A stretch of 64,000 nt of DNA. It comes from Acanthococcus lagerstroemiae. Its lineage: Eukaryota; Arthropoda; Insecta; Hemiptera; Eriococcidae. The stretch covers positions 72,140,344 through 72,204,343 of the forward strand of contig CM063108.1 in NCBI GenBank assembly GCA_031841125.1. Direction: 5' to 3'. The notes beneath the pieces are model-generated. The model had not been told where the DNA came from and made no database searches. It saw nothing but the letters and a program-made list of their open reading frames with translations. Position 1 is the stretch's first letter, and the number at the start of each line of letters is the position of its first letter. Positions 15,945 to 57,300 of the stretch are shown here, one piece after another. The translations under genes and the position numbers were made by a program.

Positions 15945-16250
15945 CGAACTAATAAAATGCAAAAATCTTTGGATTGGAGGCTACTACAGCGAAACGAGTT
16001 GACACTTTCGAAAGAGGAGATCATTTCGCTCTCAAAATTTCAAACCGTATTCATCTAGCTTGCCCCAGTCCAGAGATTTTCGCGATTTATTAGTTCCCCC
16101 CAGAGAAATTAGCGATTTCGAAAACGTCGATTCGTGTAGGTTGGGCTGCATATTCGTCGTACTGAAGGGGTGAATAAAATATTCGAAAAAGTCGAGACGC
16201 CAAATGACGTTTTCGAAAACTTCAAGTTCCTGGCGCGAACTAATAAAATG
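15945..16250. repeat. Continuation of the satellite array beyond the LINE
   Basis: After the target-site duplication the sequence goes on as an A monomer tail (AATAAAATGCAAAAATC) and a further A monomer (CGTCGATTCG at 16125). It matches the monomers left of the insertion but carries more changes. Confidence 0.9.
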
Positions 16251-30924: not shown

Positions 30925-31989
30925 TCAAAAATCTTCGAATTCCGAACCGTATAACTCTAGACGAGAATATAATAATGGAGCCTCTTCGTAATCTGGAAAA
31001 TTACTGGTATCGATGGGTCCATTTAACTTTGGTATAATCGGGGCCGGATACTTTTTCTGCAACATTGCTATCCAATCGATGTTGTGAAAGAAAGGATGTC
31101 GTTTCACGTCATCTACGCCGCTACTTTTGCTGCCCAAACGTTTAGTAACGTCTGTTTTTAGGAATTCCGAGATAATGCAACGTAATGTCCGACTCATATG
31201 AGAAGGAAAGCTTACCTTGCCGGCGATGATCTTCGTGTATACATCCTCCGGATTCTTATCCTTAAACGGCGGCTGCCCATTAGTCATCTCATACAGCAGA
31301 ATTCCCACCGTCCACCAGTCGACTGAGTAACTGTAACCCTTTCTGAGTACCACTTCCGGAGCCAGATACTCGGTGGTACCGCATCTGGTCCAAGTGCGAC
31401 GGGTGTCGATCTTCTTCGCGAATCCGAAATCAGTTATCTTGAGATAGCCTCTGGAGTCGAGCAGCAGATTTTCTGGCTTCAGGTCTCTGTAGATGATGCC
31501 CAGATGGTGGAGGTATTCGAACGAGAGTACTACTTGAGCCGTGTAGAAACGAGCCATCGTTTCGTTGAACTTTCGACACGTCTGCAGGTGCGAAAACATT
31601 TCACCACCAGGTACGAAGTCCAAAGCCATGTATAGGTTTGCGTTGTCTTTAAAATAAAATTTCATCGTGACCAGGAACGGAAAGTTGACGCACTGCAGTA
31701 TTTTTTTCTCGTTTTTCACGTGCTGCAGTTGGTTCGAATTTATCACCTTTGGCTTTTCAAGGATCTTTAGAGCGTAATACTTTTTGCTGGGTTTGTGTTG
31801 AGCGAATACGACCCTGCCGAAGTGCCCGGTACCGACCGTTTTGATGGGTTCGAAGTCGTCCGTTTTGGCCGTCTTAGCACTCACATTCTTGGTCCACTTT
31901 TCTTCAAATTTCTTTTTCGCCTTGCGAAGAAATGTACGCATGTCGGAGACCGCCGAAGGTCTGTTACTGTGCGAAGAGCCGGATGCCAT
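30925..31989 (-). CDS. cAMP-dependent protein kinase catalytic subunit-like, single exon, divergent
   Basis: A Ser/Thr kinase of the PKA-C1 type, 354 residues, uninterrupted from ATG (31989) to TGA, matching the usual family length of about 350. Motifs: GTGHFGRV (glycine loop, about residue 52), YALKILEK (catalytic Lys), PGGEMFSHL, YRDLKPENLL (catalytic loop), DFGFAKK (Mg-binding DFG), WTRCGTTEYLAPE (activation and P+1 loop), VDWWTVGILLYEM, DTSNFPDYEE, and a C-terminal FEDF hydrophobic motif. The activation-loop Thr and the acidic residues that read substrate arginines are present. Differences: no Gly2 for myristoylation (MASGSS start), and Leu198 to Arg and Pro202 to Thr (mouse PKA numbering). 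One exon plus divergence suggests an old retrocopy, though Drosophila Pka-C1 also has an uninterrupted coding region. I see no poly-A tail or target duplication. All catalytic residues survive, so it is probably active. Confidence 0.92.
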   Translation of the reverse strand: MASGSSHSNRPSAVSDMRTFLRKAKKKFEEKWTKNVSAKTAKTDDFEPIKTVGTGHFGRVVFAQHKPSKKYYALKILEKPKVINSNQLQHVKNEKKILQCVNFPFLVTMKFYFKDNANLYMALDFVPGGEMFSHLQTCRKFNETMARFYTAQVVLSFEYLHHLGIIYRDLKPENLLLDSRGYLKITDFGFAKKIDTRRTWTRCGTTEYLAPEVVLRKGYSYSVDWWTVGILLYEMTNGQPPFKDKNPEDVYTKIIAGKVSFPSHMSRTLRCIISEFLKTDVTKRLGSKSSGVDDVKRHPFFHNIDWIAMLQKKYPAPIIPKLNGPIDTSNFPDYEEAPLLYSRLELYGSEFEDF

Positions 31990-33880
31990 AGTTGGATCCG
32001 TTTATTGAAAGACGAATGGTAGCGTTTTATCACGCCTTAGTTGAGAAGCGAATTTTACATAAACCAGAGGTGGATTACCTGCGAGTGTCGTCGTCGACGC
32101 ATATAAACGGCCTAGAAAAAATTAAAGAGTTTCGACATAAATCAATTTTCACAACTAATTGGTTAATTTGGACGTCCGAACGGTATTTCCGTTTTGCTTC
32201 GCATGTCATTTCTCGAAAATTTCGAACTGTTTACAAATAGTAGAAAATTTAACTTTCTAACCCGCTTTCAACAAGCAGAGGCTTGTTCTTGGTATCTTGT
32301 TCACGTTGCACTTCATACGCTGTTGCTGGGGTTTACAGTTGGTGCCGATAATGACGAAAGTAGAGATAAAAAGCTGAACCTTGTCCTAATTTGGTATATT
32401 TCATCCGGATGTCCAGTGTAGTCAGCTGATTGCAAACGGCATCGTCGGAGTAACTGTGGACCGAAAAAATGCGAAAAATTTTGAGTTTTGTAACTCCCGG
32501 GCGCGTATTAATTGAGAATTAAGATTAAATTAGCGAGCTAGAGAATTCACCTACCTACTTAATAACATTGGTGCATCACGCTATTCACGCATGCGCATCC
32601 CATCCGGATTCTCTGGGTCCTGATTGCTGGTTACACTTTAACTTTTTTTGCTGTTCTGGCCGTCAAATGAAGCTTCTAAATTTGAAATGAACGTTGAAAA
32701 CTGCGCATTTCGGATTCAATTGCCTCTATAAAACAAGGCGATAAGATTATAATTAATTAACGAGTTGTAGACGACACAAAAACCAGGGTAGTAGAAACGG
32801 TACAAGAAATAAAACTAACAAATTTCTGTGAAAGCGGGACGGCTGAGTAGGTTGAGATGTCATTAGCGCTCGGGTAGTCTGGTGAAGAAATAGAAAAACT
32901 ACTCGTCCTACTCCGTCTCCTCCAAGCAGTGCATTGCAGCCAGCCGAAAGCTGAAAGCCAAAAGCCAAATTCAGGTCGAATTTTTACTGATAAGAGAAAA
33001 GCTGAAAGCTAGCTTTATTTGTACCTTCACAAGCCAAAAGCCGAAAGAAGCCAACATTTTCCAGCTTTCTTTTGGCTTCTCAAAAACCTATAAATTCGTG
33101 AGCTTTACGGCTCTTATCAATTTTTTATGTGTGTGATATTTTTGAGAACTGTATTTTCCCTCCTTAAGCCTTAAGAGTTAAGACCTCAGCTCAAGTGTCA
33201 GTTGACGGCAAATTTTAGCTCAAAATATCAGCACCGACTGCAATTTGTTTGTACGTTTGGTCTTTTGGGTATTGGGCAACGGAAATTTTAGCAACGAAAA
33301 ATCATCATCATTTTTTCTACTCTTTCTTTCATTCAGCTCGTGAACAGAATTGTAAAACTTATTTTATTACCTTGAAGCTCAAATCCTCTACCCTTCTGAA
33401 CTATTCTTGAAAAAAATAATTATTTAATTACAATTTTTAGCGCAAATTTATATGTGGCATCGCGTAGACACGCTCTAACATAATGCTTCTGAGAAAGATA
33501 GAAAACAAGTTTCTGCCGTAGCCTACTCACTCTCTCTTTCTAACACACAGTTTCGGCCTTGCGATGAGCGCGCACATTCCAGTTAGTATATTATTAAGAG
33601 TTCACTGGTTAAGAATGCTCGTCAATCAAAGAGACGTTCACACTGTTTAGCATCCCTACAAAATTGCCGAGGAAATATTGATGTGCAGAACTCCTTCTGC
33701 CAGAAAAGTACTAATTTTCAATCGTTATCAACAAACTTGGGAAAGTGAACTGGGAATCTATTTCATTTGAAAGACTCCATTTTAATCTGCTGCACTGCGT
33801 TGCATAGTGTGAATCGCCATATATCAAAACACCTACTGGATTTTGATGGATGGGCATTCTTAACTCAAATGGAGTATTAA
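31990..33880. other. Upstream of the PKA-like gene, nothing recognised
   Basis: Short open frames only. The region between the kinase start and the repeats at 33890 may contain the promoter and 5' UTR of the kinase gene; I see no firm core-promoter element. A low-complexity stretch of GAAAGC/AGCCAAAAGC words lies at 32945-33090. Confidence 0.5.
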
Positions 33881-35606: not shown

Positions 35607-35832
35607 GAATCCGACTCCCCAGTGATCCAATAAACGGATGGTCCACACCGATGTACCAAAAAAGTTACCAAGGTAAATAAACACTTTTTTTGAAATTTCG
35701 AGATAAGATTAGGGAAAGAGTTGCTATTTCCTATTGCACATTTCGAGATACATTTTCCAATATCGTCTGAAATTCGGCCAGTTTGAAAATCTGAACTAAT
35801 TTTTGTCAATTCAATCACCGTGAATTTCCGTT

Positions 35833-38221
35833 ATGGTAACCGTCATGAATGGCAAAACAGCTGAAACGATACCAGAATGCAAGGATAATGAGCCGCGAGA
35901 AAACATCGAAAATCTGGTGTTCAAGTATATTTCGGAGAATAATTTCGACGCAGTGAAAAACTTGTTCGTTCAGTATAAACTAAAACCCAATTTGTACGAT
36001 AAGGATGGCATGACACCATTACAGCATGCCTGCTTCAAAGGCAATAAGCAAATCGCCGAATTTCTGATCGAACAGGTAATGGTGTTAGTTGAAGCTTTTG
36101 AATTAGAAATCACTGCAGTTTTTAGCCAAAACTGGTTGATTATGTATTTTTCCCAGGGCGCAGATGTGAATAGTACTCGCCACGAGCATAAATACACTGC
36201 TTTACACTTCGCCGCCTTATCGGGTTGTTCGGATATTTGTTTGTCATTGATGAGTGCCGGCGCCCAGAGCCATGTAACAAATACCGTTGGGAAAACCGCA
36301 TCTCAAATGGCCGCTTTCGTTGGTATGCCAGCTGAATTTCTGTGTGGACGCTGTTGAATAAACATGTTCAGTCGAAAATACTGAACAGATTGACACTGCG
36401 GAACTGAAATTGACGGTATTCTGCTTCCTGTACTTTGTCATTCGAAAGTGCCTTTACGCCGATCTTTTGTTACAGGCAATCATACTTGTGTTACAATTAT
36501 AAATAATTACGTACCGAAATCGGATGTTGAATACTATACCATTCCTCGAGGGGTAGAAACGAAACCAAAGTTACTTCCAATACTAAGTGTTCCTTTGTAT
36601 TCGTACATCATGCAGGTAACGCGACTGATTCCTGATCGCGCATCTGCACTTGAGTCGTACAATCGTTCTTCAGAATATACGATGATTTCTTTGTATTTCA
36701 GGTTAATATACATCCAGTCAGACTGGCGATGAAAATGCCCATGATATTAATAGAAGAGTATTCGCAAGTTAAAAAAGTATTAGAACTCATGAGCGAACGC
36801 GAAATGAAAAAAGGAGCGGAATCAAATGAAGTTCTATCGTTCAAGTTTCATTATCTAGGTTTCATTCTATCAGAAATACACAAATGCGGGTAGATTTCAT
36901 GTTTAGTTTCATCATTTGATAACGATTTTTTGTCATAGGTGCTTCTTTGATGAAAATTTTGACTGTTACAGGGTATCCAAAAAAGAAACAGATCCAACAG
37001 AAACTTTCGCGAAGAAAATTTTGAAAGGTCCTCGTGGAGAGGAGTATTTAGACATGATATTAAGGGACTGTGTCAGGGAATTTCCATACAGGGAAGGATT
37101 ATTGTTTCAACAGGTAGGAAATATAGTTGATGTAATACCAGAGGATTTTATAGCTGCTTTCACACTTCATACCGCGCATTTACTTTGTTCGACAATGAAT
37201 CCACTAGCCTGCCTATCTGGCTGTGTCCGTCTCTGTCGGTCAGCTTTTCGATCTGTTCTATGTCTGGCACAGAAACCGACATATTTTTTGTAGGATATAG
37301 TTAGCAAGATGCGATCTTCGCTCTCAAATCAGTCTTATTCCTGGAAGAGTGGAAGAAAATTGTGGTAGCTTCTTCACTTATCAGCCCATCTTTTGCCATT
37401 TTTATGTTCAATTTACCTACTTGATTGTTTATGTGTCACACTCGCCGTTATCCCTTGTCTGTCTTGATGTGAGATTTTCTCAGCATTTTTCAAATTTTGT
37501 AGAGCAATACTGTGGGTGTATTCGGCAGTATGCGAAAAGGTAGAGACCAGAATTTTAGAACAGGGACAATAATGCACCGAATTATCGTAGGAGACGAATA
37601 TATTTATAGGCCGATGATTCTCTCGAATTTCTACTCCTTAACACTATGTAGGTTGTTTTCAAAGAATTGCTGAAAAAGTGCCTTAGTCGTGCACTCAATC
37701 CTGGATGTAGGCAGTTTCAGATAGTCGTGCAGAAGTTCGAAAAAGTATTCTGATGTCATAAAGAATTATCGGGTTTTCCGCTAATTGCTGCCTTAAAACA
37801 TCCACTCTCGAAGTAAACTTATTATCCTCACTACGATTACGTAAAAACGACCTCTACTGAACTTATCCGAAATCTTCTCGTTTAGATGGTGAAAAGTTTA
37901 GCCCGCAAAGAAGATTCACCACCGGCACTGAATGTCATTATCTGCGCCATTAACAGTCAATCTAACTTCAGCGATGAAAGTACTCCCTGCGTTACGTGTT
38001 CCGAGCCAAAAGCGATTAAAAAGTGTTCAAAGTGCAAAGCCGTTCAATACTGTGACCGTGAATGTCAGCGGTTGCATTGGTTCGTGCATAAGAAGGAATG
38101 CGCTCGATCGTCCACGTCCACTGTTTGCAAAGAGAAGAACTCGGAAAGTACACCGGAACGCAATACCGAGGAACTTTCCAGTGATGTGGAAAATCTTGGA
38201 ATCGCTGCGACTAACTCGTGA
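35833..38221 (+). CDS. ANKMY2: Ankyrin repeat and MYND domain protein 2, complete, 6 exons
   Basis: Exons with matching phases: 35833-36075, 36157-36322, 36476-36615, 36702-36889, 36972-37113, 37886-38221; 404 residues plus TGA (human protein about 441). Ankyrin repeats read DGMTPLQHACFKGNKQIAEF (about residues 58-77) then GADVN, and YTALHFAALSGCSDICLSLM. The last exon carries a MYND zinc finger (about residues 328-365) with all eight ligands in the pattern CxxC-x8-CxxC-x5-Cx3C-x7-Hx3C, followed by a Ser/Glu-rich tail. I took the first ATG as start; a second lies four codons on. In vertebrates ANKMY2 is linked to ciliary trafficking of adenylate cyclases and Hedgehog signalling; the insect role is inference. 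Its 3' end faces the WDSUB1-like gene, 675 bp away. Confidence 0.93.
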
Positions 38222-38896
38222 GTGTTGCGAGATGTTTTGACCAGACTCTGTTCGTGAATCCCTGATCTGGAATCATCGAGTGCGATGCGTAGCCCTACAT
38301 TCTTTCTTCAGCTTTAGTTTTGTGTGCGAATCCATTTGTGTGTGTACAGCGACGATTGTCGTTGTGTCTGATTTTTTTACATTTCTTATTATAATTTTAC
38401 TTTTACTTGTAAAGAATTTTAGTTTGTTAAGTTGCAATAAGCGACTAGTCCAAAGCTCTAGCAGCTTTTAGTTACTTAATCGAAACTTCGAAGTAGATTT
38501 TTTAGTGCAGTATTAATAATTGAAGATTTTTTGCAATTTAAGTTCTTTGTAACCATTTTAGAAAATTTTTGACTGGTATGTTATTTTTCTATGAATGAAA
38601 TCGAGAAAAATGCAAAAATCGTACCAACTTTAGCGTCTTATTTAATCCTCGCATGAAATGAAAAGACTAGTTTTCCTACATTTTGTATAATTTTTGTAAA
38701 AAAATAGGTAATTGATAGGCTATAAGTGGTATTTAACACAGAATAGTTGGTGAGTAACCACTAGAGTGATGAGCAAACGCGTGTAGGATCTAAAACTAAA
38801 ATGAAATTGATATAGCTGAACTTTCTGAATTTTTTTTTTTTTTTCTAAAATCATTCATTCATCACTTGTGCACTAGACTGATACATCTATTATTTC
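38222..38896. other. Convergent 3' region between ANKMY2 and the WDSUB1-like gene
   Basis: AT-rich, with a T-run near 38830-38845. It must hold both 3' UTRs, so the two transcripts may overlap. No open frame of interest. Confidence 0.6.
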
Positions 38897-41800
38897 TTAA
38901 GAAAGAATATTCGTCGGTTCAGCGGATTCGATGGTGGTTGAAGCTATCTTCAAGTCTTTTACGAATTGCGTGATTTTGTTCTGCAGTTCAGCATTAGGAG
39001 TCAGCTTGGTGATGTTTATTGGCTCGTTAGTCATTGGGCTGGTCACTTTGCCGGACGAGAACCATGAATCAATGGCAGATCGCTCGTACGTGTAACCATC
39101 TACAAAAAAGATACAGTAATTTGCTTCTATTGTCGATGAAATAATTATTTTAGACGTGCAATATAGAAGTACGACGTTTTGTGGAGGTCATTCGATGAGG
39201 AAAAAGTCAAGCAGAATTTATTTGTGACTTAGTAAGATGACGAGATGAACTATCAACACAGTTCACGCGTCTCAATGGCCTTGTTATTCCAGTAAAACTT
39301 CGATTTTGTTGGACGAGATATTCTGCCGAAAATGAGTTGAAATACTTACAATTCTTTAAAAAGGGGTTGCAATCTAATTGGAAAATTAACATGCCTAGGT
39401 AGCGCTAGTGTAACACACTAACACAAACTAAGTAACGCTCAACACATTGGAAACGCCTTGGGGATTATTTCAGCTTCCCTATTCTCCTACATCAAAAATC
39501 GCGATTTACAATTTCACGTAATTTCGTTTAAAAAATCCCATGGAGGTAATTCTTTTTTATCCTGGTAGCTTAAAGCTATTGCTGAAATTATTTCAACCAA
39601 CTTCCTTTCAAAAACTTTTTTATAACACGCCAAAGGCATTCAAAGATCACTCATTTAGCACGTTTTTTATATGAACTAGTAAAATTATCCCCCAGTTGTA
39701 GCAGCAGGGCTACCGACACAGGTACTTTTGGTTAACTACCCAATATCAACGTGCATACTTCTTCATTCGCATTCTGATAATCTGCTAAACAATAAAGCAA
39801 AGGAACAAACCTGCACACACCACTGGTTGCACCATCAGTTGCTGTGTTATAGGACAAATGAATTCGTGCGGCACATTTATGGAGTTGAAGTCACACGCGT
39901 TGAATTGACACAGAAAATCAGAAACTGTGAACGAAAAGAAAACGCCGCATTAAAGCGTGCCTGGGTAAAAGAAGGTCCAGGTATCGGTTCTTAGGGCAGG
40001 GTCGTAACTGCGAGGGAGGCGAATAGGATCACCACCTTTCTCAAAACAATTGGAATTCCATTGTCACCCCATCCAAATTTGCCTCTCCTGATATGAGGCT
40101 GATTATATACTGAGAAAACCTGATTTCTCATTTTTAATTTCCTATACCAGTAAGACCAGTAAATGAACTTTATATACTGAGGAATTTAGGATTTCAGTAA
40201 ATGACCTATTATTAAACCACCAGAATGCATGATTTTTTTCCAGTTTATTTAAATGTACTAAATGGTTTTCTTTTATTTCTCATAAGTTAATCCGTTAATT
40301 GATAACAATGTACGTGTAAACTTGGTACAATATAGGCAACTCCCTGTAGTTCTAGGCGCTAGAAATCGTATCATCAAGAACCTTTTAGATCTAGCTCAAA
40401 ATCTCTCATCGCTAAGATACTGCAAATGAGAGTGATTTTCAATTGGTACAGAGACTATACTACCTTCGTTATGTATATGTTCGATTACTCCATTAGCAGC
40501 CTGAAATAAAAATGAAAGTTTAATAAAAAGGAACTTCGAATTTTGAACGTTCGCATATGCACTAACTTAACAAAAAACGCAGGACAACAACAAAACGCAA
40601 AGCGGCTTACTAAATGTTTTGTCAACCTGTTCGTAGCCAGTTCTTCGAATTCATCCACATTCCTGCGAAGATCCCAAATGATGATAGATTTATCCAAAGT
40701 ACCTGAAACGAACATCGGTACGCATGAACTTTACTTCCTCTCTCCGTGAATATCAAATTCACCGGGATTTATCTAATCTTTACCAGTGGCTAGGAGTGAA
40801 TTGTCGAACGAAAATGCGCAGCTTGTCAGCATGGATTCCTTCGAATCGAGCACGTGCAAACATTCACCCGAACTCTGCGAATAAGAAAATATCGAGTCAC
40901 GAGTTTCACAAAAAGTATTATACAAATAGTCAATCAAAAATTCCGATTTACCGAATTCCATATTCTGGCTGTCTTATCAGTAGCCGTCGACGCGACTATA
41001 CTAGATGAATTCGGTGGAAACCTAACGCACGTAACATCGCCACCGTGCCCAACCAGTGAAAAATTCAAGTTAATTTTAGCTGTAAGCTCATTTATGACAT
41101 GTACAAGCCATAGTTTGACTAAGGAATCATTTCCGCACGTAGCTAACATGTATTTTTCTCCCTTACCTAGAATACGTAAAAGGTGTTCATTAATGCGCGT
41201 GAAATTAAGTAAAGATGATAGGTATCAACGAAACGTCACGTACTGGACGACATGTGATCGGTCAGACCAAAGTCCATGCTAGTTATGCCCAGGTCGTGAA
41301 CATTTTCCTCGCACATGATGCAAATGGTCATGCACGGCGAAACGCACCACAGACGAATGCTGCCGCCTAGACAGCCAGATGCCAAGTACCTGGAATCTCT
41401 CGTGAATGACAAACAGGATACTGCGTCCATGTGACCAGTCATATTGCTGTAACAAGGCAATACTCGTATTGTACACACGCGGAGACTACAGCAGATATGC
41501 ATACACTACACACATACTTAGGGTACCTTACTCACACTATTAGCTGTAAGTCGTGTAGGCTCCAAACGCAAACCATTTCGTGATCTCCGGCAGTGGCCAA
41601 TAATTGGGAGTTCGGCGAGAATTTACAACATTTTATTCCTCCCTCGACGCTATGGACGGTTCCAATTTGTTTGTATTCCTATAAAGACGTACGTACGTAT
41701 CACTCGTAAGGACTATTTTGATAACTGACAAAATATTTCTTCAAACAACGTTTATCGTGTGAAACAAGTTTGTAGCAAAAAAATAAATAAATAAAATAAT

Positions 41801-44800
41801 GCAAGGTAGATTTATATTCTGTTCTTTGGAGTTAACCATAAGTTATACACTTAGAATCGATACAAGTAATGCAAGAAGAGGAGTCCACGAACGGGCAATA
41901 AAAAAGAGAATTACTACAACGATATTCAATGCAGGGTCGTATCTAGATCATTGGAAAAGCAGAGGTTTGAAGTTGACAAGGAGTTAAAAACACTATTGCC
42001 GAACAAAACGAGTGAAAAATTCTGAATTTCTAAAACATGTAAACGCAAAAAATCATTTTTTTTCACGTAAGAGAGAAATTCTAATACTCCCCTCTCTCCC
42101 TATCCGTTCAGCCTAGTCAATACTAATGTTTTTCAACAACTACATAATTAAAATTTTTCAAGGAGTTCATTCAGCAACACATCGTTCTAATGTTTGAGAC
42201 CTGCTATATGCTTTAATTTCGCGATACTTGGTGTATAAATTACCGATAAATTCCACACAACGGCGGTTCCATCGACCGAACACGATACAAGATACATGCC
42301 GCACACACTAAAATCCACCTGATTGACGGTGTACTGATGACCTTCCAAAGGCGATACTGATACCTCAACAAATCTGTTGCCATTGCGATGCCACAGTCTT
42401 ACCAACTTATCCCTAAAGTAAAACACAAGAGGAGAAATTGAGGTCAAATGTGAGATAACATTTGAGAATATTCAACAAACACGAAAGTTACAACCCAGAA
42501 CAATAAAATAAACTTACGTTCCTCCGGCAGCAAGTAAATCATCCTTCGAAAAAGTGCAAGAATTGATAGCGTTTCCTAGATTTTCGATTTTTTGCATAAT
42601 GGTCGAAACATTCTTCACTTTGAACGGACTGGCAGGTTGAGAGCTTGATGATGGCACCTGAATATGAGTTTGAGACATATGAAAATTTGTATGGAAAAAT
42701 TAAAAAATACCTCGGCAGGTTTGGGTTTGAGAGGGAAGGGAGGACGGGGTAATATGTCCATCGTCAAATTTCAAGTGCATCGATGTCCAAACTAATTTTC
42801 CATACGTATGTAAGATAATTAACCCAAAAATTAACAATTTTGAAGAAACCGTCGGAAGCATTCATCCAACAATATTCATCGAAGTATACAGAAAAATCGT
42901 ATATCTTTTATTTTTTGCGAGGCACCGTCAAATCAACCACCACCATTCTTAAAACTAGAAAAGGTTTCGCCCTTCGCAGCCCAACCACTTTCGTCCATGA
43001 GACACTATGGAGACAAGAAAAGGAAAGAAAAGAAAACATGGACACTGAAAATAGCTCACAGAAAGGGGTACATCGTCTAGATTTCAAAGCGATTTGAACG
43101 CATGAACCACGCGTCACCTAAGACTCATTACGTCTCCTAAGTTCCATTAAGGCTATTTAAGACGCATTCAAACTAGCGAAGACTCCCGTTAACTCTGATT
43201 AAAGCTCACTGCGATACATACAGACTCAACTAAGACTCATGAATCTTCGATCAGGACCCATTAAGATATTTAAAGACCTTCTTAAAACTCATCAGAACGC
43301 ATTCACAATCATTAGGACTCGTTACGACTCACTCAAAACCCCTTAATTCGTTGAAACTTTGTTCACAGTCATCAGGATTCAGTAGCACTTTGTTAAGACT
43401 GGTCAAGATCTATACCAGTTCATATCGCTTGAGAATGTCTATTTGTATTCGAGTCAGAACTTGGTAACCTGGAAAGATCTTGGCTCTCGACTCACTTTTT
43501 TCAGGAGATTTGAATAAGCTAGGTCATCACTTATTACATACTTTCAAACACTTCTATTCAGTCTCTGAGTCACTTCGTTTTCGACGAAGTACAGAATCAC
43601 AGAAACATCAATTTTTGGTTTTTAGATTTCAGCTCGGAGGCTCATTTTTCTTCCAGAGAACGAGGAACTGCGTTCTCAGTTTAAATAGGCGGAAGATAGC
43701 CAACAATAAAACACGAACATAAACTTACTTTTCCTAAATATGAACTAGGCGTTCGCTCTCCCGTTAAGTCCCATATAATTACTGATCTATCATTAGATCC
43801 TGAAAATGAGGTAAATACGTACATCTACAGATTAGATAGGTACTTTGTACACGATTAGTTTTAATGTACACGAGTGCCGTCAAACATCCCGAGGAGAAGA
43901 CAATTCCACGGATGAAACATCATGATTTTTTAAAATATCGACGGAAGGGAGGAGGGCGGAAGTGAAGCAAATGCCAATTTGTGTATCCCTCATATCACTG
44001 AGAAAACCCTACCAAGTTTCGTGATAAGAACATGACTAAGAAAAGAAATAATAAAATTATCATGTTCATAAAGTCAGTGCCCTTGACGCTTATCTCGTTT
44101 TATGGTCCCATCAGAGATAAAATACGTATGAGCTAGTTCTGCAGTAAGAAAAATCATTACCAGTAGCCAATAACGTTCCATCGGGTGAAAATGAACACGT
44201 TGTAACATATCGTTTGTGACCTTTGAGTACCGTCAAGCACTGATAATTATACTCGTCAATCTGCCAACAGACAACAATTTGCTTTCAACATTTTTGGAAA
44301 AGCAACCATGATGGGTAGCCGTTGAAAAATCCATTGGTACGTACAGCCCATAGGCGAATCGTTTTATCCAGTGACGTTGACGCTACCATATTGCCAAGAA
44401 AATTAAATTTAACATCGGTAACTGCGGATCCATGACCCACGATAGTGAATAATAACTCGGAAATACAATAGCGAAGGTCTTCTTCTCGTTTTCGACAAAT
44501 CAGCTTCCACAATTTTAGCAAATTATCATTACCACCGGTTATCACACGGTATTCTTTTCCTCGATCTAAAAATAAAGACGTGGATTAATGTTCGGAAAAT
44601 ATCGATATTCGAGTCAGAAATATACGAATTAAAATTAGTTCACCAGTAACATCTGTAATGGGAGAAAAATCTGCTTGATTAATGCCTAGGTCGTGACAAT
44701 CAGGTATAGTGTGGTCTGGTAACAGTTCGGAGGTAACTTCAGAATCACAGAATGAGGAAACATGCCACACTTTAACGAAACCTGTTGTGTCACCAGAGAG

Positions 44801-46107
44801 GAATATTTTAGAATCGCAGGAAACGCACGCCACTGAAATAGTTTCATCGTGTAACTGCATCGACCTGAATACAAAATATAAAAGGAGGAATTGTACTTGT
44901 AACTCGATTCTGATTCGGCTGATATAATAAAAATTAGTATTTGGAATGCGGAACTCCGAGTTCAATACTCATAAGTTCAGTTCATTTCATCGAACAATCA
45001 CATGTTATTAAAGTCAACGGCTGACGTTCCAATAATTACACAATTAATATGTATGTTCTGGGACGGGTCGCTTTATTTCAGTCATCATCGGCTGTTGCAC
45101 CGACCCCCCATGTCATCATCACATGATCATCACAGCTCAATGTACTTCCTTTGGTAAGACAATAGTACCACAATAAGTTTATCATCTGCTATCAATAAAC
45201 GGATGTACTCGTCCACGGCCTACTATAACCGTTGTAGTTAGCCATGACGCATCTCTTTATATGTTTAGCAGATCTGAACTGAACTAATGAGGACTGACAG
45301 TTGACGATTCACTTTCTGTACTAGTTAATTCTGTTCTTACAATAATTATCAAGTTGCATTTCAGTAGAAAGATTCCACTGGTACTGATCACTTACACCGC
45401 AAGTTGACCCTCAGTTAACTCAAATAAACTGATTAAGAAAGAAAAAAAAAAAATTTAAAAAAAAAATGAGAATTCTCACTTTTTTAGTGTTTTTCTTGTT
45501 AAATCCCAAACACAGAGAGTTCCATCACCGCCAGCTGATAACAAATGCTTGTTCTCATGAATGTAACAGAAAGTACGAACACTGGCCAAATTGACGTGCA
45601 TTAAAATATGCAATAATTCGCCATCCTGAAACCAACAAATCAGAGAGTTTCGGTAAGTATAATATGCAGATGCTAAGCATTCGTGAAACAAATAGAATCG
45701 TCGAAAATAAATATACGTACTTCGATATTGAATATCGAGATGCATCCGTCCCAGGATGAAGTAATCAGCTCCTGATCCTCCGGAATGAATTTAACTTTGC
45801 TAACTCCATACTTGTACTCGGTAATAGGGGAATAAGATACTTGCGTATAGCCTGCCCCAGGCTTCCATTCGCTTATAACTACTTTTTTGTCGCTATAAGG
45901 GTGAAGTGAAAATACAGTTAAAGGTGTAAGCTAAATACTAATGGATACTTTAACCAGAGAAATTTCCCAAGAAAAAATTACAGGATGTTATTACCTGGAT
46001 CCAGAGGCGAACCGAAAGGTGTTATCGAAATCACAAGTGGTAATATCGCTGGAATGTACATTTAAAGTTTGCAGAATCTGCGATTTTTCGACACATAATT
46101 TAGGCAT
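38897..46107 (-). CDS. WDSUB1-like protein with two tandem WD40 propellers and a U-box, complete, 17 exons
   Basis: Exons in gene order: 45995-46107, 45721-45892, 45480-45625, 44644-44864, 44345-44565, 44161-44260, 43729-43799, 42518-42657, 42244-42412, 41536-41678, 41244-41446, 40952-41166, 40784-40874, 40611-40702, 40464-40500, 39811-39924, 38897-39099. They sum to 2,451 nt, 816 residues plus TAA, every phase matching. Exons 1-7 encode one seven-bladed propeller (348 residues: LTSSWDG-type blades, CHDLGI, LDKTIRLW, DRSVIIWDL). Exons 8-14 encode a second (351 residues: TDKLVRLW, HDLGI, TDKTARIW, LDKSIIIWDL). Exons 16-17 form a U-box (about 730-800: HEFICPITQQLM, DGYTYERSAIDSWF, SPMTNEPINI). 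Human WDSUB1 (476 aa) has one propeller, SAM and U-box; I see no SAM here. Probable role: E3 ubiquitin ligase binding E2 through the U-box. The start follows the WDSUB1 pattern. Confidence 0.9.
43115..43480 (-). repeat. Degenerate AGTCTTAA minisatellite in the intron joining the two propellers
   Basis: TAAGACTCATTA, AAGACTC, TTAAGAC and AGGACTC variants recur every 10-20 bp on the + strand; read in the gene's sense they are GAGTCTTA, the same family as 7787-8775. It lies in intron 7, exactly between the duplicated halves of the WDSUB1-like gene. Confidence 0.7.
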
Positions 46108-49100
46108 GGTTCTTCGTGAATTTCAAGCGAATTCGTTACTACATTGCTTAATATACTTTTGCGTTAACATGTCGCAAAAAAGAAATGTCAAACGCATCAC
46201 AGATCTATGGGATACAAGTTTTTCCTCATGTTTTCCTCCGAAAACTTACTAAGCGGATGCGGCGTAAGACGCAAAATATAAATGATAAAGCCACAGCCGA
46301 CTGAGGATGTAAGGAATAAGTACACAATGATAAACAGCAATGCACACCAACACTCGTATTGCGCTTCACGATTATTGACGAGTAACGACAAGTTATCACG
46401 TCACAATTTCCCGTCGTAGTCCGAAAAGTAAAATATTCACACCCTACCGTACGTTTCAAGTTTCAACCCAAGTCAACCTTTCAACAGCAGGTGGAAGTCC
46501 CGATGACGTCATTCGTAGTTTATGCAGTGTTACCAGATGTCGGAGCGAAATATAGAAATTATTCAACCTCATAAGTTCACAGTTTCACACCACAACCCTG
46601 AACTTGAACGAAAACTGGGATTACGACAATGACACGATCACTTATCAGACACATTATGTTTCACCTATCATGATGGCAGATTCATTGAAGAAATGAAGGA
46701 CAGGGTGCAAGAACCAAGAAGTAGTCGAGTTAATTTTTCTGCTGACCAACCTATTAGCATTGCCTATCACGGAAAACTTGAAATTGACTCCTTCCAAGAC
46801 CTCCCAATAATATTAAAATGTTCGAAATCGGGTGATTATAAATGTATCGTAGCATTAAATATCGAACCAAAAACTGGCTCGATCATTTCCTCTATTTTGT
46901 ACCCCATACTTGGAACCCGTCAATATTTCGCGGGAGTTTCGAGATTTGCCTGGAATCAATATAAGGAATAAATTCTACTCTTGGAACTCGAAATACACAG
47001 TCAGGGGCGCAACCAGAACTTTTTTGGCGGAGGATAGCATTTAGAAAAGAAACTTGCGACTGTGGTGAAAACTCGATTTGGTACCTACCTATTTTCATGA
47101 ATTGATATTGAAAGAATTTCGAATTTTTGGCGGGGGCTATAGCCCTCTTGCCCCGTTTTCCAATTTTTTTTTTTTTTTTTTGCAAAACTTGGAAAGGGCA
47201 AATACTGTTACTTTCAGCAGAAAATTCGCCGTGTTAGATACTAGAATCGTAAAATACATTTCTTTTCAAATTGCCACAGAACAATTTTCTCGTTGTAACA
47301 TAAAAGTGTCCGTGTCACATTGTGGAATTAAAAATGATAACTGAGTCGTCGAAAATTAAAGGAAAACAACGAATTTAGTAAAGTCATATGGAAACCACTT
47401 TTTATGTTTCCACTGAACTTTGTAAAAGCTCTCATGTGATTTCATTTGTCCAACACCACGAATCATGTTTCAAGTTCAAGTGTTTCGAAGTTCCACCCCT
47501 CATTCGTAAACACAAAACATAAACTTCTGAATATTTCACATGAAACCAGCGATCGATAGTCAAGAGCCACCGGATGAAAGGTCATTTCTTCGTACACGAA
47601 GGTTCATTAACAGAATAGCGCCCGAATCAAATTGAATAAAACGTTCATATCTGCTGACTTTGAAAATAACAATGTTTTGTCATTCGGAATCCAGTTGACA
47701 TGACAACCGCAATACGTTTATGTAATAACTGTCAACACTCATATTGGACATTGCAATAATGTACCTATATAAATAATTACTCGTCTCGATAAATCACCAG
47801 TATTTTCTTAGGATGAAAATGGAAATAAACGAACGCATTAAAACATTTATCTTCTTCGTAGTACAGACCACAGTTTATTAATAGTAATAGATAATGATAA
47901 TAATAAGCAGAAAATTAACAAATTAATTTTTGGTAACATGAGATTTTCTTTTCAGTGACCCGACGGTTAAGAATACCTACACATAAATTTTAAACAGAAT
48001 GTAGACTGATCCGATGATATATTGTTGTTGTACTTTATAACACAATGAGACTGCTAGGTTAGGTCTGTAAGTCATCGGCTTTGCCTAATTTGAAATGTTA
48101 ACTTCGTTAGTGATATAAATATAAATATATATAAATGCGACGTATACGTAAATAAATATACATAAATTAACCGATTCGATTAGAAAATTTGATAAATCAT
48201 ATTTCAATTAGGCATGCTCCGTAATTCATGAATTCATGGACACAATTTATACAGCTGTAAAATGAATGGTACGAACTGCTTTCAACCACCACTGATGAGT
48301 ACAGCCGTCTGATAATCCGGGTAGTACTTCGGTAATTCATACACCGAAGAACGACTATTCATATAGGTTGAAGGATATAAATGGTTCTCACATCCTCATT
48401 CATAAATAATAATTCCGAGTGGAACAGAAAACCAAACTATACACTTCTCCACACTCCATACATTTTTCACTTCAATTCACGTGATGAACTCATCGTGATT
48501 TTAAGATTAAGCCATTTACAACAACGGTTCAACATAAAGTCGTTATGAACTGGAATTGAAATTCCTCTTGCTAAGGAGCTAGAACACCCGAATATAGACA
48601 TATGCCATTTAGGGACTTCAAGATTCCGTTTCCAATGGAGCCAAAGTCAATGAGTTAGAATTTAAGATCAGTACCTATTACGCTTGACTGACTCCTACAG
48701 AGTTGTATTTTCAAAATATTTCAAGTTCTACTCGTATTTACCTGTCAGTAATAAACATTTTTTTTAGCACGAAATATTGTCTTGATGAAAGACTGGCTAC
48801 ACTGTTCAATAATTCGTTCATAGTGATCGGATAAAGAGATATTAGAGCTCAGAATGGTATTAACTGTACATTCAGAATTAGGTACCTACATAAATGGATG
48901 TGATTGAAGCGACGTACCGACGGTACCGAACAGAGTACGAAAATAGGCGATAAAATGTTAAAATTGTCTGGACCTCTGGACCCGCCACAAAGGTTTTGAA
49001 TGTGATCAAACTACCGACCACTGGAACGATTCAACCCTTGTTCAATTCAGCGAAGTAGTGACGAAAAAAGTAATTCGATGTTCTACAGGGATGACTCGAT

Positions 49101-51314: not shown

Positions 51315-54300
51315 TTACACCTTCCGTAACATGGGCAAATTCAACGAATCTGGAATTTCAATATCTTCTAATCTTATACTGGACGGGTTGAACGGGAACC
51401 GAACAGGAAACTGGAACTTCGTGTCCATTAGTAGGTACGACTGCAACACAGAACCGTCGTTAGTGATATCAACTGTTAATCGCCATCGTAAGCACACGCA
51501 TATTCAGTTCCAGTTTTGAACAGGGTTATACAGTGAAGCATGTTATAAGCAACCAGACTGGTCTTCAAAGAAAAGAGATGGAAAGACTTAAAAGATGCAC
51601 AAATTCACCCCAGTTTCAGATGCGTTAAAGAGCGTACACATCTAACGCGAACGAGACAAGCAGAATATGAACAGATATATGTTCGGTTCGCGTTCAGACG
51701 TGTACGCGCATTTACAGTAAATAAACTGTTCATGTACAATGTATTTCCGATGTAAAAAATAACTGAAAAAGTAGGTAGGTACAGTAATTTATACTGTAAG
51801 TAAAAGTTAACTTTTAGGATACAAGCCAGTTTTCAATATAATTATACGTCTCGTTTATTTGATACCAAACGCTGGTTATTCGTACATTATTGATACAAAC
51901 CTGTTCGGTCGACTCGTTTCTCTCTTGTAATTTTAGCTGTACTTTTTTGATGAATGACATAGGTACTTTTTCTTCGTAATCATCACCCGGCGTGTACATG
52001 TTCAGAACTTTGATTATCTGAAATTAATTTCAATAATAATATTAAGTCTATTTTCAATTTAGTTACACGACAAAACGATGCAAAATTCTCGAAAAATGTC
52101 TAGCAAGAACTTGATGATTCTGTTCCACCACTTGAAGTCTCACACATAAAACTACGAGGCTTTACCCACAACTGTAACTCGCTTCATTCATTACAGCTCT
52201 GTTTTTGGTGTCTCGACCTTCACTTCTCTGTCTTTTTGATTCAACTAATTCGTTCTCTGGCTCCTTGGCTGCCTGACTAACTGTCTACCTAGTCATTTGT
52301 TTGTCAATTCATAGGGGATTGCAGTCTTCTTCAGCGACAACAGCAAGGGCACACCAAGTTTTTGGGATGGATTAAAATTCCTTAAAAGCTTGATAATATT
52401 CTTCAAGAGTAAGATTTCGACTCCTGAGTCAATTTTTTCAGCGGGAAGAGGCAGCCTGCCTCTGCCAGCCTGTATCTACTGATGTTTGTCTTTCAGAACA
52501 AATGAAGATGTAAATTGTTCAAGTGCATTAAAAAATCGAATTGAGGCAGAGTTTTGTGAGAGTGTGTTGAAAAAATCGAAACAAAAAATTTTGACTGGTT
52601 ACTTGACCCACAAATAATGTAAGTTTACACCTTGTACTTTATATTACTGTGGCACGTATTAAATAATGTTTACATTATTATTTTTGTTACGTCTATACTC
52701 TACAACGAGCTTTTCGTTATAACCAGATAAAGCGAGTTCCTTGTTACATCCCTTACAACGAGCAACTGGGTATTACGAGGAAAACTGCTGGTCCCTTGAA
52801 TCTCGTTACAGGCGGCATCTACTGCATTCTCACCTGACTGCTGGCATATTTTGCCGACTGGCTGCCTTACAGTTTAGTTGAATTTGTTCTCGTGATTTCT
52901 CTGACTTCAGATAGGTAACCGACTCAGCATTTTTTCCAGTCTAGACTCCATTTAGTATACAGAGAAACGTGGGAATGCAGCGAATGCAGAAAATTGTCTG
53001 ATGGAAATACTCTACTTTTCACTCATTACGAAGAACTATTGCCCTAGATTTTTTGAAATTCTCTACGCATCACTTCTAGTTTCTGTAAATTTGTATTATT
53101 TAGGCGAGATAATATCCGAAGGGAAAATAAATTTTACCTGATTCGATGACATTCGATAACACATATTGCAAATGCTATCTACATCTTCATCAGTCTTTCG
53201 AGCTTGTAGCAGCTGCGATGCTTGAATGATCGGCTGCAGCATATCCAGAAGGTCTGATTCCTGTCGAACAAAACCAGTTAATGTGGTACGAGTAATCTCC
53301 AGCCACGATAAGAAAGCGTGCTCACGCTGAAAGATTACCTGTGCTGTCAGCAAATTCAGATCCCTCGCCCATTGCTCAAGATAGGACAAATTATACCGTA
53401 TTTGCATACCCTTCGACCAGTGACACAATTCTTTTCTCAACAATAAATTGTTGAGAACGGTAGCGCAGATGAAGTAGAACAGCTGTAGACAAACATAATC
53501 TTAATAATGCGATTCGTAGTCAAGTACAGCGACCAAGCTGATACTGATTCGGAAACTGAGTACGCTATCGAGAGTGAAATTCTAACATTCAAGTTTCTGA
53601 GATACAGCAAACTAGCTGAGTTTAACACTAATTGAAAATCAAGCCTCTGATGATAATAGTGCGTACTGACCTGTTTGAAAACTTGTACTAAAACGGCGAA
53701 ATCTACGCCGAGGAAACAGAGCACGTTGTAAAAATCGCTCAACTGTTTCTGGAAGGCGTCCGGTGCTTCTGATATAGGAGTCGCCGCGCTGGATACCGAC
53801 ATCGACCGAGTTAAATGTTTTCCACCCGATAGCCCGGGAATTGCATCGAACTCCAAAATTGCCGCTAACGCCAAATCTTGTAACTGATTCTCCATTGTAC
53901 GGATCATACTCTAACGGATTGGGAACAAATTTATTATAAACTGTTTCTTACTATTCAGGAGCAGCCCGGAGGTGTAGCAAGATCAAAAAAAAAGAGACGC
54001 GGAGGTGGTGTCGAAGAGATAATGATTGAAAAACGCCATCTACGGGTGAACACGAACGGTAATTTTTTCAGTTTTAATGGCCATGTAATTTCATCAATAT
54101 TATAATAACATGTTTCATGGGACCCCACTTTGTCATTTTATAGCCGCCCAGCTGACATCGAGCTAATCTTCCGATTCGGCAGGCCACACCTTATGGTATG
54201 GCTGTCTATCCGACTATTAAACTCTTGTTTGTTGGTCTAGCTGACTGTTTTCCTCTCTACCTGATTTGTAGTTTAAAATTGGAATCCCAAGTTTTTTCAG

Positions 54301-57300
54301 AAAAAAGGAGAGAGGCGGCAAATAAAGGCACGAATGACAAACATGAGAATAGACATCAAGAACAGACACATACAGAGATAAAATATCTGCCCGTCTGTCT
54401 ACCTGTCCCGTCAACTAGTGAGACAGCTGACTGTTTTTTACCTGCCTGTCTGTCAATGTGACTAAATCTGGCAGTAACTGATGTACCCCTACACAATTTT
54501 TAAAAATCTTAATACGAAGCAACGGATTTCCAAGAAATGCAAGAAGCAAAAAGTACTTTCAAGTAAAGGAATGATTTTGACCTCCGTCCATATTGTTCAT
54601 TCACAGCTATGGTTGCAGGGCAGGCTACTTGAACCACGTGAAATTTCCAAACCTGGTAAATCCATACGGCGGTATCACTCAGAACTTGACGGTACTCGAA
54701 CAAATCGAAATACTGCAAACACTGAGCGTTTTGGGTAGGCGTGTTTTCTTCCTGGAACATTTGTTCGCCGCTGTACTGTTTCAAGGTGTGTAATAATCGG
54801 AGCGTATTCGAAAGCCACAGCACCGACGTTTCTAAATCCTGATTTCTACGTTTCACTGTTTTCTTTACGATATTTATAAAACTACACAACAGATCGCGAA
54901 CCTGAAACACAAATCAAACCGATACGAATGAAACTCGCCACAGATGATATTCAGTGATGTTTAACAATAATGCCTACTCTTTCTTCGTCGTTCGTTATGT
55001 CAGTGTGCCTTATACACATGAATATAATGTACGCTGGTAGTCCAGGCACTAGTGTTACAGCCACCGTCGGTTTCAGTTCTGCGAAAACAAAAAGGAAGAC
55101 AAAACTTAAACAGAATATACTTTCAGGGTGACATCGTGAAAATAATTTAAGTCACTCTCAGTATCTATAACAAGCCACCCATGATAGAATGGTAAAACAG
55201 TTGAACCATCGGGTGTACATCAGATACATTCTAGGAATAGCCACAAGTGAAGAAAAAAAGAAAACATCAAACCATAGTTATTACACTTACCAACAACTAA
55301 GACCTTGAGAATGGCGGGAATATCGTTCTTCGAGAACTCCAGCATTCCCATGTAGTCTCTTTCCTTCTTACGGACGGACGGCAACTCGCTATTGACTATA
55401 TTTGCTATGACGGTGGTATTCACCGCGTTATTTTCGGGGACTACAGACTGTTTACCTGAAGAGAGATCAAATTAGTAAGGACCACGTTAATTCCCACGCG
55501 GAATCTATTTCGTGAACTGTATTTTAAAACCAACTTTTTTCGTTACAGTCGACGAGATATTCTTGCAACTTTTTCTTCATTTCTCTGTACGCCTTCTGCA
55601 TTACGTCGTATTTCTCTCTTAATTCCTGAAACAAAATGCACGATGAATTTAAATGCAGTGCGACGAATCAATGAATTATCGCCCTAGAGCCCGCTCACAA
55701 TATGATGTTAGCAAAAATCCAAACTGACGAGAATAAATGCGCTTAACAAACATCAAAATAGCATACCTAAGGTACAAGATATGAAAGAAATTTATAGAAC
55801 AATAAAAAAATATTGTTAGAAGAGAGTGAAAAGAGAGAAAAGAAAAAAATAGAACTCCTACTTCGTTCGAACTACTAGAATACTTAGAACTACTTACGAG
55901 AATAAAATTTCGGAGGATACGGACAAATTTTTTTTTTCATTTTTTTATTTATTAAATACTGAACTGCCGATGGACAAATATGAAATTGAAAGTAGGTACG
56001 TTAAGTTCAGTTACAAACACGATAGAAATAGTGATTTTGAAAACCAATGAAGAATAATTCGACGTTAGAAATGGGAATTTCAATTTTATTAATACTCGGG
56101 TTTTAGTTAATCATTTTTTTTTTAACAATTTTGAAAATTGCTACATTCTATAAATTGTAGATATTTACTATCTTTTTGACAAGCTAAAAAAAGAAAAGAT
56201 GGGGAAAATATAACAATAAATCAATGAAAAATAACAATAATATTTGCAAGGAGAGTTTCCACAGAAGCCTGGCAGTAAGCTTATCGCCCCAAATTTCAAT
56301 ATCATTCTTGCTATATGAAACAAGTACATCATCATCGAAGTTCCTTAAGGTGAATTCACAAATGCACAACTGCCTTCCAGAATACACCATAAATAGCCGA
56401 TAATAACAGTTGTAACGGTGAAACGAGAAAGTTATTCCGATTCCATGTTTTAGCACCGGATTTGAAAAACAACACTCACCAGACTTTCAGACACAAGCCG
56501 ATTAACTTCGGACTGTAAGTATGCTTCACTCTGCGACTGCGGTGATTTGGACAAATTAACACTCAATAACTGCTGTTGCCTGTCGTTATCTTCTTTCAAT
56601 CGAGCGATTTCATCTTTTAAATCGTCCCTTTCGTTAGCCCGCAGCGTCTTCTCTCGTTGCAATTCTTCTTCTAAATGTCTGCAACAACGAATATAAATTG
56701 AACAATATAATTTTCGTACTAGAAGCAATACCACCTAACCTACAAAATAGTGATTTTTAGGTGTTGAATGTTTAGCGTCATTGACACACATCGACTACAT
56801 GAGCGATTCACGAAGAAAAGTTATTACTAGTCGCTGCGCTGTTAACTGAAACGATGGATCGGATGGAAAAGGTCCCTTGTGTCACAAATTTACAATTCTC
56901 AAGAAAACAACTTTTTTTTTTAACGCGAAACCCACCTTTACCGGCAGTTCCTATCAGTTTTTTGCTTCTCCTGTAAAATCAACTGTTTGGGGTTACGCGG
57001 TACTGTTTCTAGTACGACGATATGGTTTCTTTTGTTGTTAGATATTCAAGTAAAATGTTTCATTGAAATTATGTGTATTCTATACAAACCTGTTGATCTT
57101 TTTTTGCGTTTCGAAAGCCAGAACTAATTCCCCATCTTCATTGATACTGTCCAAATCCGCGTCGGGCGAGTAATTACTTTTTGCTATGCTTTTCAAGCCT
57201 TCGGTGTTATTAACCAATATATTACGTAATTCGCTACATTCTGCACGTCTGCGGGCTACTTCAGCCTGTAATTCGCGGAATTGAGCTGAAACATATTTAA

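Follow-up and report, generated by a model that had tools for sequence, protein, structure and literature searches.

The window analyzed here is a stretch of 64,000 nucleotides from Acanthococcus lagerstroemiae (Hemiptera, Eriococcidae; GenBank assembly GCA_031841125.1, contig CM063108.1, positions 72,140,344 to 72,204,343), and it contains, on its minus strand, a gene of the WDSUB1 lineage that encodes, in one reading frame, two WD40 propellers and one U-box, probably on a single chain. Rebuilt from its splice borders, this gene runs from 46107 to 38897 (about 7.2 kb) and comprises 17 exons and 16 introns, all 16 of which start with GT and end with AG; the product has 816 amino acids. Exons 1-7 (46107-45995, 45892-45721, 45625-45480, 44864-44644, 44565-44345, 44260-44161, and 43799-43729) encode the first propeller, H1 (residues 1-348), which matches the Pfam WD40 model with an E-value of 2.5e-44 and a hidden Markov model (HMM) of single-propeller WDSUB1 at residues 13-335 with 232 bits. 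The second propeller, H2 (residues 349-699), is encoded by exons 8-14 (42657-42518, 42412-42244, 41678-41536, 41446-41244, 41166-40952, 40874-40784, and 40702-40611); it matches the same HMM at residues 372-679 with 291 bits and WD40 with an E-value of 1e-49, the latter when scanned inside the 485-residue alternative product described below. Three further exons lie beyond the range covered by a preliminary description of this DNA, and they complete the 816-residue frame: exon 15 (40500-40464, 37 bp), a linker between H2 and the U-box at the site of the SAM domain in other insects; exon 16 (39924-39811), with more of the linker and the first part of the U-box; and exon 17 (39099-38897), with the remaining U-box, the C-terminus, and the stop at 38897. 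The C-terminal U-box occupies residues 729-795 (PF04564, E-value 1.2e-20). In its propeller class and its C-terminal U-box the protein agrees with the definition of WDSUB1, but it departs from that definition in the SAM domain and in the number of propellers. Judged by its sequence, it belongs to the WDSUB1 lineage as a derived form that stands outside the canonical membership.

The two halves resemble each other in sequence and in gene structure. In a BLASTP comparison of H1 with H2, 112 of 339 residues were identical (33%, E-value 4e-44), and the motif HDLGI is present in both. The exon lengths are 113, 172, 146, 221, 221, 100, and 71 in exons 1-7 and 140, 169, 143, 203, 215, 91, and 92 in exons 8-14, and the end phases 2, 0, 2, 1, 0, 1, 0 of the first set are repeated in the second. 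When all halves were aligned, the phase agreed in seven of the seven intron pairs; five pairs fell in the same column and the other two lay one to two columns off beside gaps. We judge, without a formal test, that this match goes far beyond chance, and introns shared by both halves would be older than the duplication itself. The junction of exon 7 with exon 8 is in phase 0. The lengths and phases that the preliminary description gave for the 14 exons agree exactly with the rebuilt gene, and its further observations, namely HDLGI in both halves, a phase-0 join, and one frame leading to one U-box, are all borne out. These features support a tandem duplication of the propeller-coding block of seven exons within the WDSUB1 lineage, with one frame and one U-box. 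The preliminary description went further and placed the duplication of that block inside the gene. The tandem duplication stands on the 33% identity and the seven matching introns, but its mode does not, as duplication of an exon block and tandem duplication of the whole gene followed by fusion may both be compatible with the sequence. A remnant of a SAM domain or a U-box in intron 7 (42658-43728, 1071 bp; donor GTAAGTTT, acceptor ATATTCAG) was considered as a sign of whole-gene duplication, and a search of this 1.07 kb intron found no match to either domain. This result does not decide on the mode, since the event is too old for a remnant to be expected.

It could be argued that the locus holds two separate tandem genes, one closing with exon 7 and the other beginning at an ATG at 42761. 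An in-frame candidate first exon does exist there (42761-42711; ATG, 17 codons, phase 0, donor GTATTT) and would yield a protein of 485 residues, the usual size for WDSUB1, and one AATAAA occurs at 42912 on the minus strand, within intron 7. However, the first half alone would have neither a SAM domain nor a U-box, and a single chain is found in the 29 named insects examined. The mealybug shares a conserved linker just past the junction of exons 7 and 8 (SQPASPFKVKNVS in the window and NQPSSPFKQKNVS in Planococcus), but the alternative exon's 17 residues have no counterpart there or in the other orthologues read. We therefore consider two separate genes to be very improbable. Orthologues in one chain include those of Planococcus citri (805 amino acids; 67% identity over 98% of the query, the closest among the matches listed), Parthenolecanium corni (799; 62% over 98%), Adelges cooleyi (798), and Daktulosphaira vitifoliae (789). 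The preliminary description had counted orthologues in the form of two independent genes as evidence against its own model; in the insects examined they are single fused chains. Moreover, an 815-residue two-propeller protein of a relative (P0003) is encoded on a contig only 2777 bases long, in which introns and untranslated ends together could take up no more than about 330 bases. As this is too small for 16 introns over 7.2 kb, the contig should derive from spliced RNA, and it supports a single transcript for both halves. A second protein (P0123), with 871 amino acids on 3887 bases, points in the same direction, although less strictly. The predicted model of the mealybug orthologue has two beta-propeller domains (mean predicted local distance difference test score, pLDDT, 85.0; predicted template modeling score, pTM, 0.71), in keeping with the propellers of the preliminary description. 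VIA-align matches covered mostly residues 364-687. A Foldseek search for solved structures in which two propellers are arranged in this way gave template modeling scores of 0.31-0.34 by query length among the 50 matches listed, from which no conclusion is drawn.

The architecture, which the author of the preliminary description had not met before, is not peculiar to this genome. Two propellers are usual in the insects examined, and such proteins are already in the databases, mostly as WDSUB1 and otherwise as hypothetical protein, Notchless, or alr-like WD protein. With the HMM, for which seven single-propeller proteins had served as input, we scored the window protein and 65 others that were hand-picked for taxon spread from the matches listed (120 of 1986, 45 of 45, and 120 of 169); the homologue searches admit proteins of 0.55-1.75 times the query size, and short forms could be missed. 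Habropoda and Phaedon, whose damaged models hold pieces of both propellers, are outside this count of 66. Two propeller regions were found in 33 of the 66 proteins, i.e., the window protein, those of 29 named insects, two further contigs, and ena6092, with one half partial or split in Anabrus, Agrilus, Timema, Gryllus, Copidosoma, Blattella, Frankliniella, and ena6092. All 29 named insects carry two propellers in one chain, and they include a mayfly, cockroaches, a termite, a grasshopper, a katydid, stick insects, a cricket, a thrips, beetles, the silkworm, sawflies, wasps, a bee, an ant, and hemipterans. The other 33 proteins have one propeller; they comprise the proteins of all 22 named non-insects (nine crustaceans, a spider, a tick, molluscs, a crinoid, cnidarians, fish, and a sea squirt) and 11 others, and no single-propeller insect WDSUB1 occurs among the matches listed. 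A duplication private to this genome is ruled out by the orthologues together with the tree described below.

The proteins of Periplaneta americana (884 amino acids) and Pogonomyrmex barbatus (907 amino acids) are colinear with that of the window, with two WDSUB1-type propellers and then a U-box, and their halves belong to the same two groups of the tree; unlike it, they retain the SAM domain ahead of the U-box. Hemipteran WDSUB1 proteins (Planococcus citri, Parthenolecanium corni, Adelges cooleyi, Daktulosphaira vitifoliae, and Macrosteles quadrilineatus) have the same order of propeller, propeller, and U-box with no SAM domain, although their sequences have diverged. Canonical WDSUB1 of other animals (crustaceans, molluscs, fish, and cnidarians) shares the propeller class, in most cases the HDLG loop, and the U-box, but has one propeller. 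The survey that defines WDSUB1 as seven WD40 repeats, a SAM domain, and a U-box aligned mostly the last WD40 repeat, the SAM domain, and the U-box, and in the sections of it available to us no second propeller of insects is mentioned (PMC3087547). The term WDSUB is also absent from the main text of a survey of silkworm WD40 proteins (PMC5855749). More generally, neither the two-propeller form of insects nor the loss of the SAM domain in hemipterans is described in the accessible portions of the literature on WDSUB1, on double propellers of U-box/WD40 proteins, and on SAM contacts, a silence that is weak evidence that neither feature has been described.

The age of the duplication was addressed with trees of the single propellers and halves, computed under LG+G4 throughout. 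Anabrus, Agrilus, Copidosoma, Blattella, Timema, and Gryllus, with incomplete halves, and lgn1687 were left out, and an unmatched stretch of 64 residues was cut from H1 of Frankliniella beforehand. The first tree, of 80 propellers, was also made without jgi2009, jgi2088, jgi1748, lgn2107, Ciona, and lgn2110; Bombyx and Macrosteles were additionally removed from the second set, and ena6092, Penaeus, and Bradybaena from the final tree. In the first tree the insect H1 sequences (26 rows, support 99/99), the insect H2 sequences (26 rows, 96/99), and the single propellers (94/71) formed separate groups, and without Bombyx, Macrosteles, and ena6092 the values were 100/99, 100/100, and 100/97, respectively. 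Each half of the window protein clusters with its counterparts from other insects, and so do the halves of the two further contigs. The tree that the preliminary description had suggested thus yields two insect-wide groups and a duplication before the winged insects. As the mayfly Cloeon has one half in each group, the duplication should have occurred before mayflies and the remaining winged insects diverged, roughly 400 million years ago. One propeller is present in the malacostracan crustaceans examined, which places the duplication after their split. On this sampling, with wingless hexapods and branchiopods outside it, the trees indicate a single duplication between the malacostracan split and the mayfly split. 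The halves of ena6092, however, join each other in the full tree (97/92), a placement flagged as long branches meeting. Trees in which they are held with their respective insect groups are not rejected by the approximately unbiased test (p-AU 0.37 and 0.21), so that between an independent duplication and a long-branch artefact the latter is perhaps the explanation. This protein (P0020) has 653 amino acids with a missing N-terminus, two propellers, and no SAM domain, and its best match among the proteins compared is that of a termite (32% over 766 columns).

What is special in the window protein is only the missing SAM domain, a feature common to the five named hemipterans examined. A SAM domain stands just before the U-box in 25 of the 33 two-propeller proteins, including those of 24 of 24 named non-hemipteran insects (weak in Bombyx, with 9 bits; 20 bits in Cloeon), and those without it are the window protein, the five of five named hemipterans, lgn2777, which groups with scale insects, and ena6092. 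The spliced window protein has no SAM match, and there was also none below an E-value of 0.2 in 335 open pieces of at least 15 residues from the six frames of 38500-46500; between the last propeller strand and the CPIT of the U-box lie 54 SAM-free residues. The linker lengths computed for Daktulosphaira and Frankliniella are pattern artefacts and were disregarded. Because the leafhopper Macrosteles is without the domain and the thrips Frankliniella has it, the loss can be placed early in Hemiptera, and the distribution is best read as one such loss, with true bugs, whiteflies, and psyllids outside the sample. Among the 33 single-propeller proteins, 31 have a SAM match immediately ahead of the U-box (weak in jgi1748); in jgi2088 the SAM helix-5 motif lies farther upstream, and P0220 (lgn1687, 433 amino acids), which by eye looks like chelicerate forms, has one propeller and no SAM domain. 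Another single-propeller relative of WDSUB1 (P0174, lgn, 623 amino acids) appears by eye to have two SAM domains before the U-box.

Even where insects have kept the SAM domain, its putative contact face is altered. In solved SAM-SAM complexes, the basic start of helix 5 (the end-helix) docks on the acidic mid-loop of the partner, and glycine is preferred at its beginning in Eph receptors (PMC5993539, PMC2755476). We counted the corresponding residues in 23 of the 33 single-propeller proteins and in 21 of the 25 SAM-bearing two-propeller proteins. All 23 single-propeller SAM domains have glycine at the start of helix 5, Arg/Lys two places on, Lys/Arg four places on, and, in the mid-loop, Asp and Glu. 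Among the 21 two-propeller SAM domains, glycine is found in one, Arg at the first basic place in five, Lys at the second in seven, and the mid-loop Asp in four; the mid-loop Glu is found in none (Asp occurs there in one). The whole set is thus present in 23/23 of the former and 0/21 of the latter. From single- to two-propeller proteins the mean charge changes from +1.35 to -3.00 at the helix-5 start and from -1.65 to +0.19 in the mid-loop, and the strict helix-5 motif pattern occurs in 28 of 33 and 0 of 33 proteins, respectively. A Mann-Whitney value for the charge comparison takes no account of kinship among the proteins and is given no weight here. At matched U-box identity, the SAM domains of insects differ more among themselves than do those of single-propeller animals; at a U-box identity of 0.6-0.7, SAM identity is 0.30 among insects versus 0.44 among single-propeller animals (0.41 among single-propeller arthropods). 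The predicted model of the cockroach protein has five helices at the SAM site (mean pLDDT 82.1), so that the fold seems to survive there while the face residues are gone. By analogy with the solved complexes, we infer that these residues may make a SAM-SAM contact in WDSUB1 itself.

On balance, we think it probable, from sequence comparisons, that one gene of the WDSUB1 lineage carries two propellers and a U-box on one chain and that the propeller pair in cis took over from the SAM-SAM pairing in trans. The protein would be a U-box E3 ligase in which the U-box binds the E2 enzyme, and its propellers would bind substrate or adaptor, in line with the action of mammalian WDSUB1 on USH2A together with WHRN (PMC10238197), with one chain offering two docking faces. 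Joined in cis, the propellers would assume the role of the trans SAM-SAM contact of single-propeller WDSUB1; after the duplication the SAM face would be free to decay, and the domain would then have been dropped in Hemiptera. Of the two options raised in the preliminary description, i.e., the holding of two substrates and internal dimerization, we prefer the second, with which some of the sequence evidence fits. A more specific form of this proposal, in which single-propeller WDSUB1 multimerizes via the SAM end-helix and mid-loop, the insect enzyme acts as an internal dimer of substrate receptors, the SAM contact was later taken apart and the domain itself deleted in Hemiptera, and the window represents the end state, is tentative and, while possible, doubtful. 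Several points weigh against the overall explanation, in addition to the alternative first exon and the joined halves of ena6092 mentioned above. The SAM model was built partly from proteins that were later scored with the same model, and in the SAM-less proteins the domain may have diverged beyond recognition. The duplication and the loss of the SAM face fall within a single unsampled segment of the tree and may represent one event, not a correlation. The placing of the two propellers is also loose, with a pTM of 0.71 in the mealybug model and with 2ymu spanning both propellers only at a root-mean-square deviation of 19.5. Finally, P0220 suggests that loss of the SAM domain needs no duplication, which argues against a tight link.

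It is indeed quite possible, if short of probable, that the SAM loss and the decay of its face are unrelated to the second propeller and that the domain is simply dispensable, as in some other animals. The one-propeller, SAM-less P0220 would fit such dispensability, as would the absence of WDSUB1 from Drosophila and Caenorhabditis and a SAM-less form on record in a sponge (PMC3087547). However, the contrast between 23/23 and 0/21 for the SAM-face set resembles a sharp switch more than scattered decay, although perhaps it reflects one event.

Conservation within the propellers bears on whether the pair acts as two equal receptors or as two different ones. Of 60 positions conserved in single-propeller proteins, each half keeps 41; 29 are kept by both halves, 12 by H1 alone, 12 by H2 alone, and seven by neither, in a comparison made without Bombyx and ena6092. 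The main rival explanation holds that the propellers bind different partners, e.g., a substrate and an adaptor, and that the duplication widened or split the binding. These conservation data fit it as well, since only 29 of the 60 positions are retained in both halves, and mammalian WDSUB1 works with an adaptor: it raises the ubiquitination of USH2A, and more so with WHRN (PMC10238197). However, at 85% only three columns are fixed for different residues in H1 and H2, so that sharp class-specific faces are not evident, and split binding by itself leaves the change in the SAM domain unexplained. We consider it rather unlikely and retain the replacement of the SAM contact by the cis propeller pair as the preferred explanation.

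A U-box and a WD40 propeller are also found on one chain in the splicing ligase Prp19, but there the U-box is N-terminal and the WD40 repeats are C-terminal (PMC3087547), the reverse of the order in the window protein. WDSUB1 has been little studied, and in 2010 its roles were described as totally unknown (PMC3087547). If insects use a fused propeller pair, results obtained with the mammalian protein would not be directly transferable to them. If the replacement proposed here is true, it would provide a clean natural case in which a trans oligomer was replaced by a cis duplication, with the hemipterans as the finished state.

Within the same gene, the final blade of H2 ends in exon 14 (40702-40611, minus strand) with LLATGTLDKSIIIWDLR, which we take to resemble the WDxR box of DDB1-binding WD40 proteins. 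WDLR at this position is also found in Planococcus and lgn2777 and is absent there in the other proteins compared. Tail to tail with the WDSUB1 gene lie, on the plus strand, an ankyrin-repeat open reading frame (ORF; 35824-36357) and then a MYND-finger ORF (37886-38221), presumably exons of an ANKMY2-like gene. Three exon-like ORFs at 53096-54913 (minus strand) look by eye like a class V myosin tail, with a Pfam match in none of the two that were scanned. An intronless ORF of 358 amino acids at 30925-32001 (minus strand) encodes a cAMP-dependent protein kinase (PKA) catalytic subunit (Pkinase, E-value 2.8e-68), and its best PDB match is the PKA catalytic subunit alpha (E-value 3e-131). Reverse-transcriptase ORFs are found at 14467-15948 and 58492-59034, both on the minus strand, with matches to RVT_1 (E-value 1.5e-35) and RVT_2 (E-value 1.4e-17), respectively; we take RVT_2 to denote the copia type.

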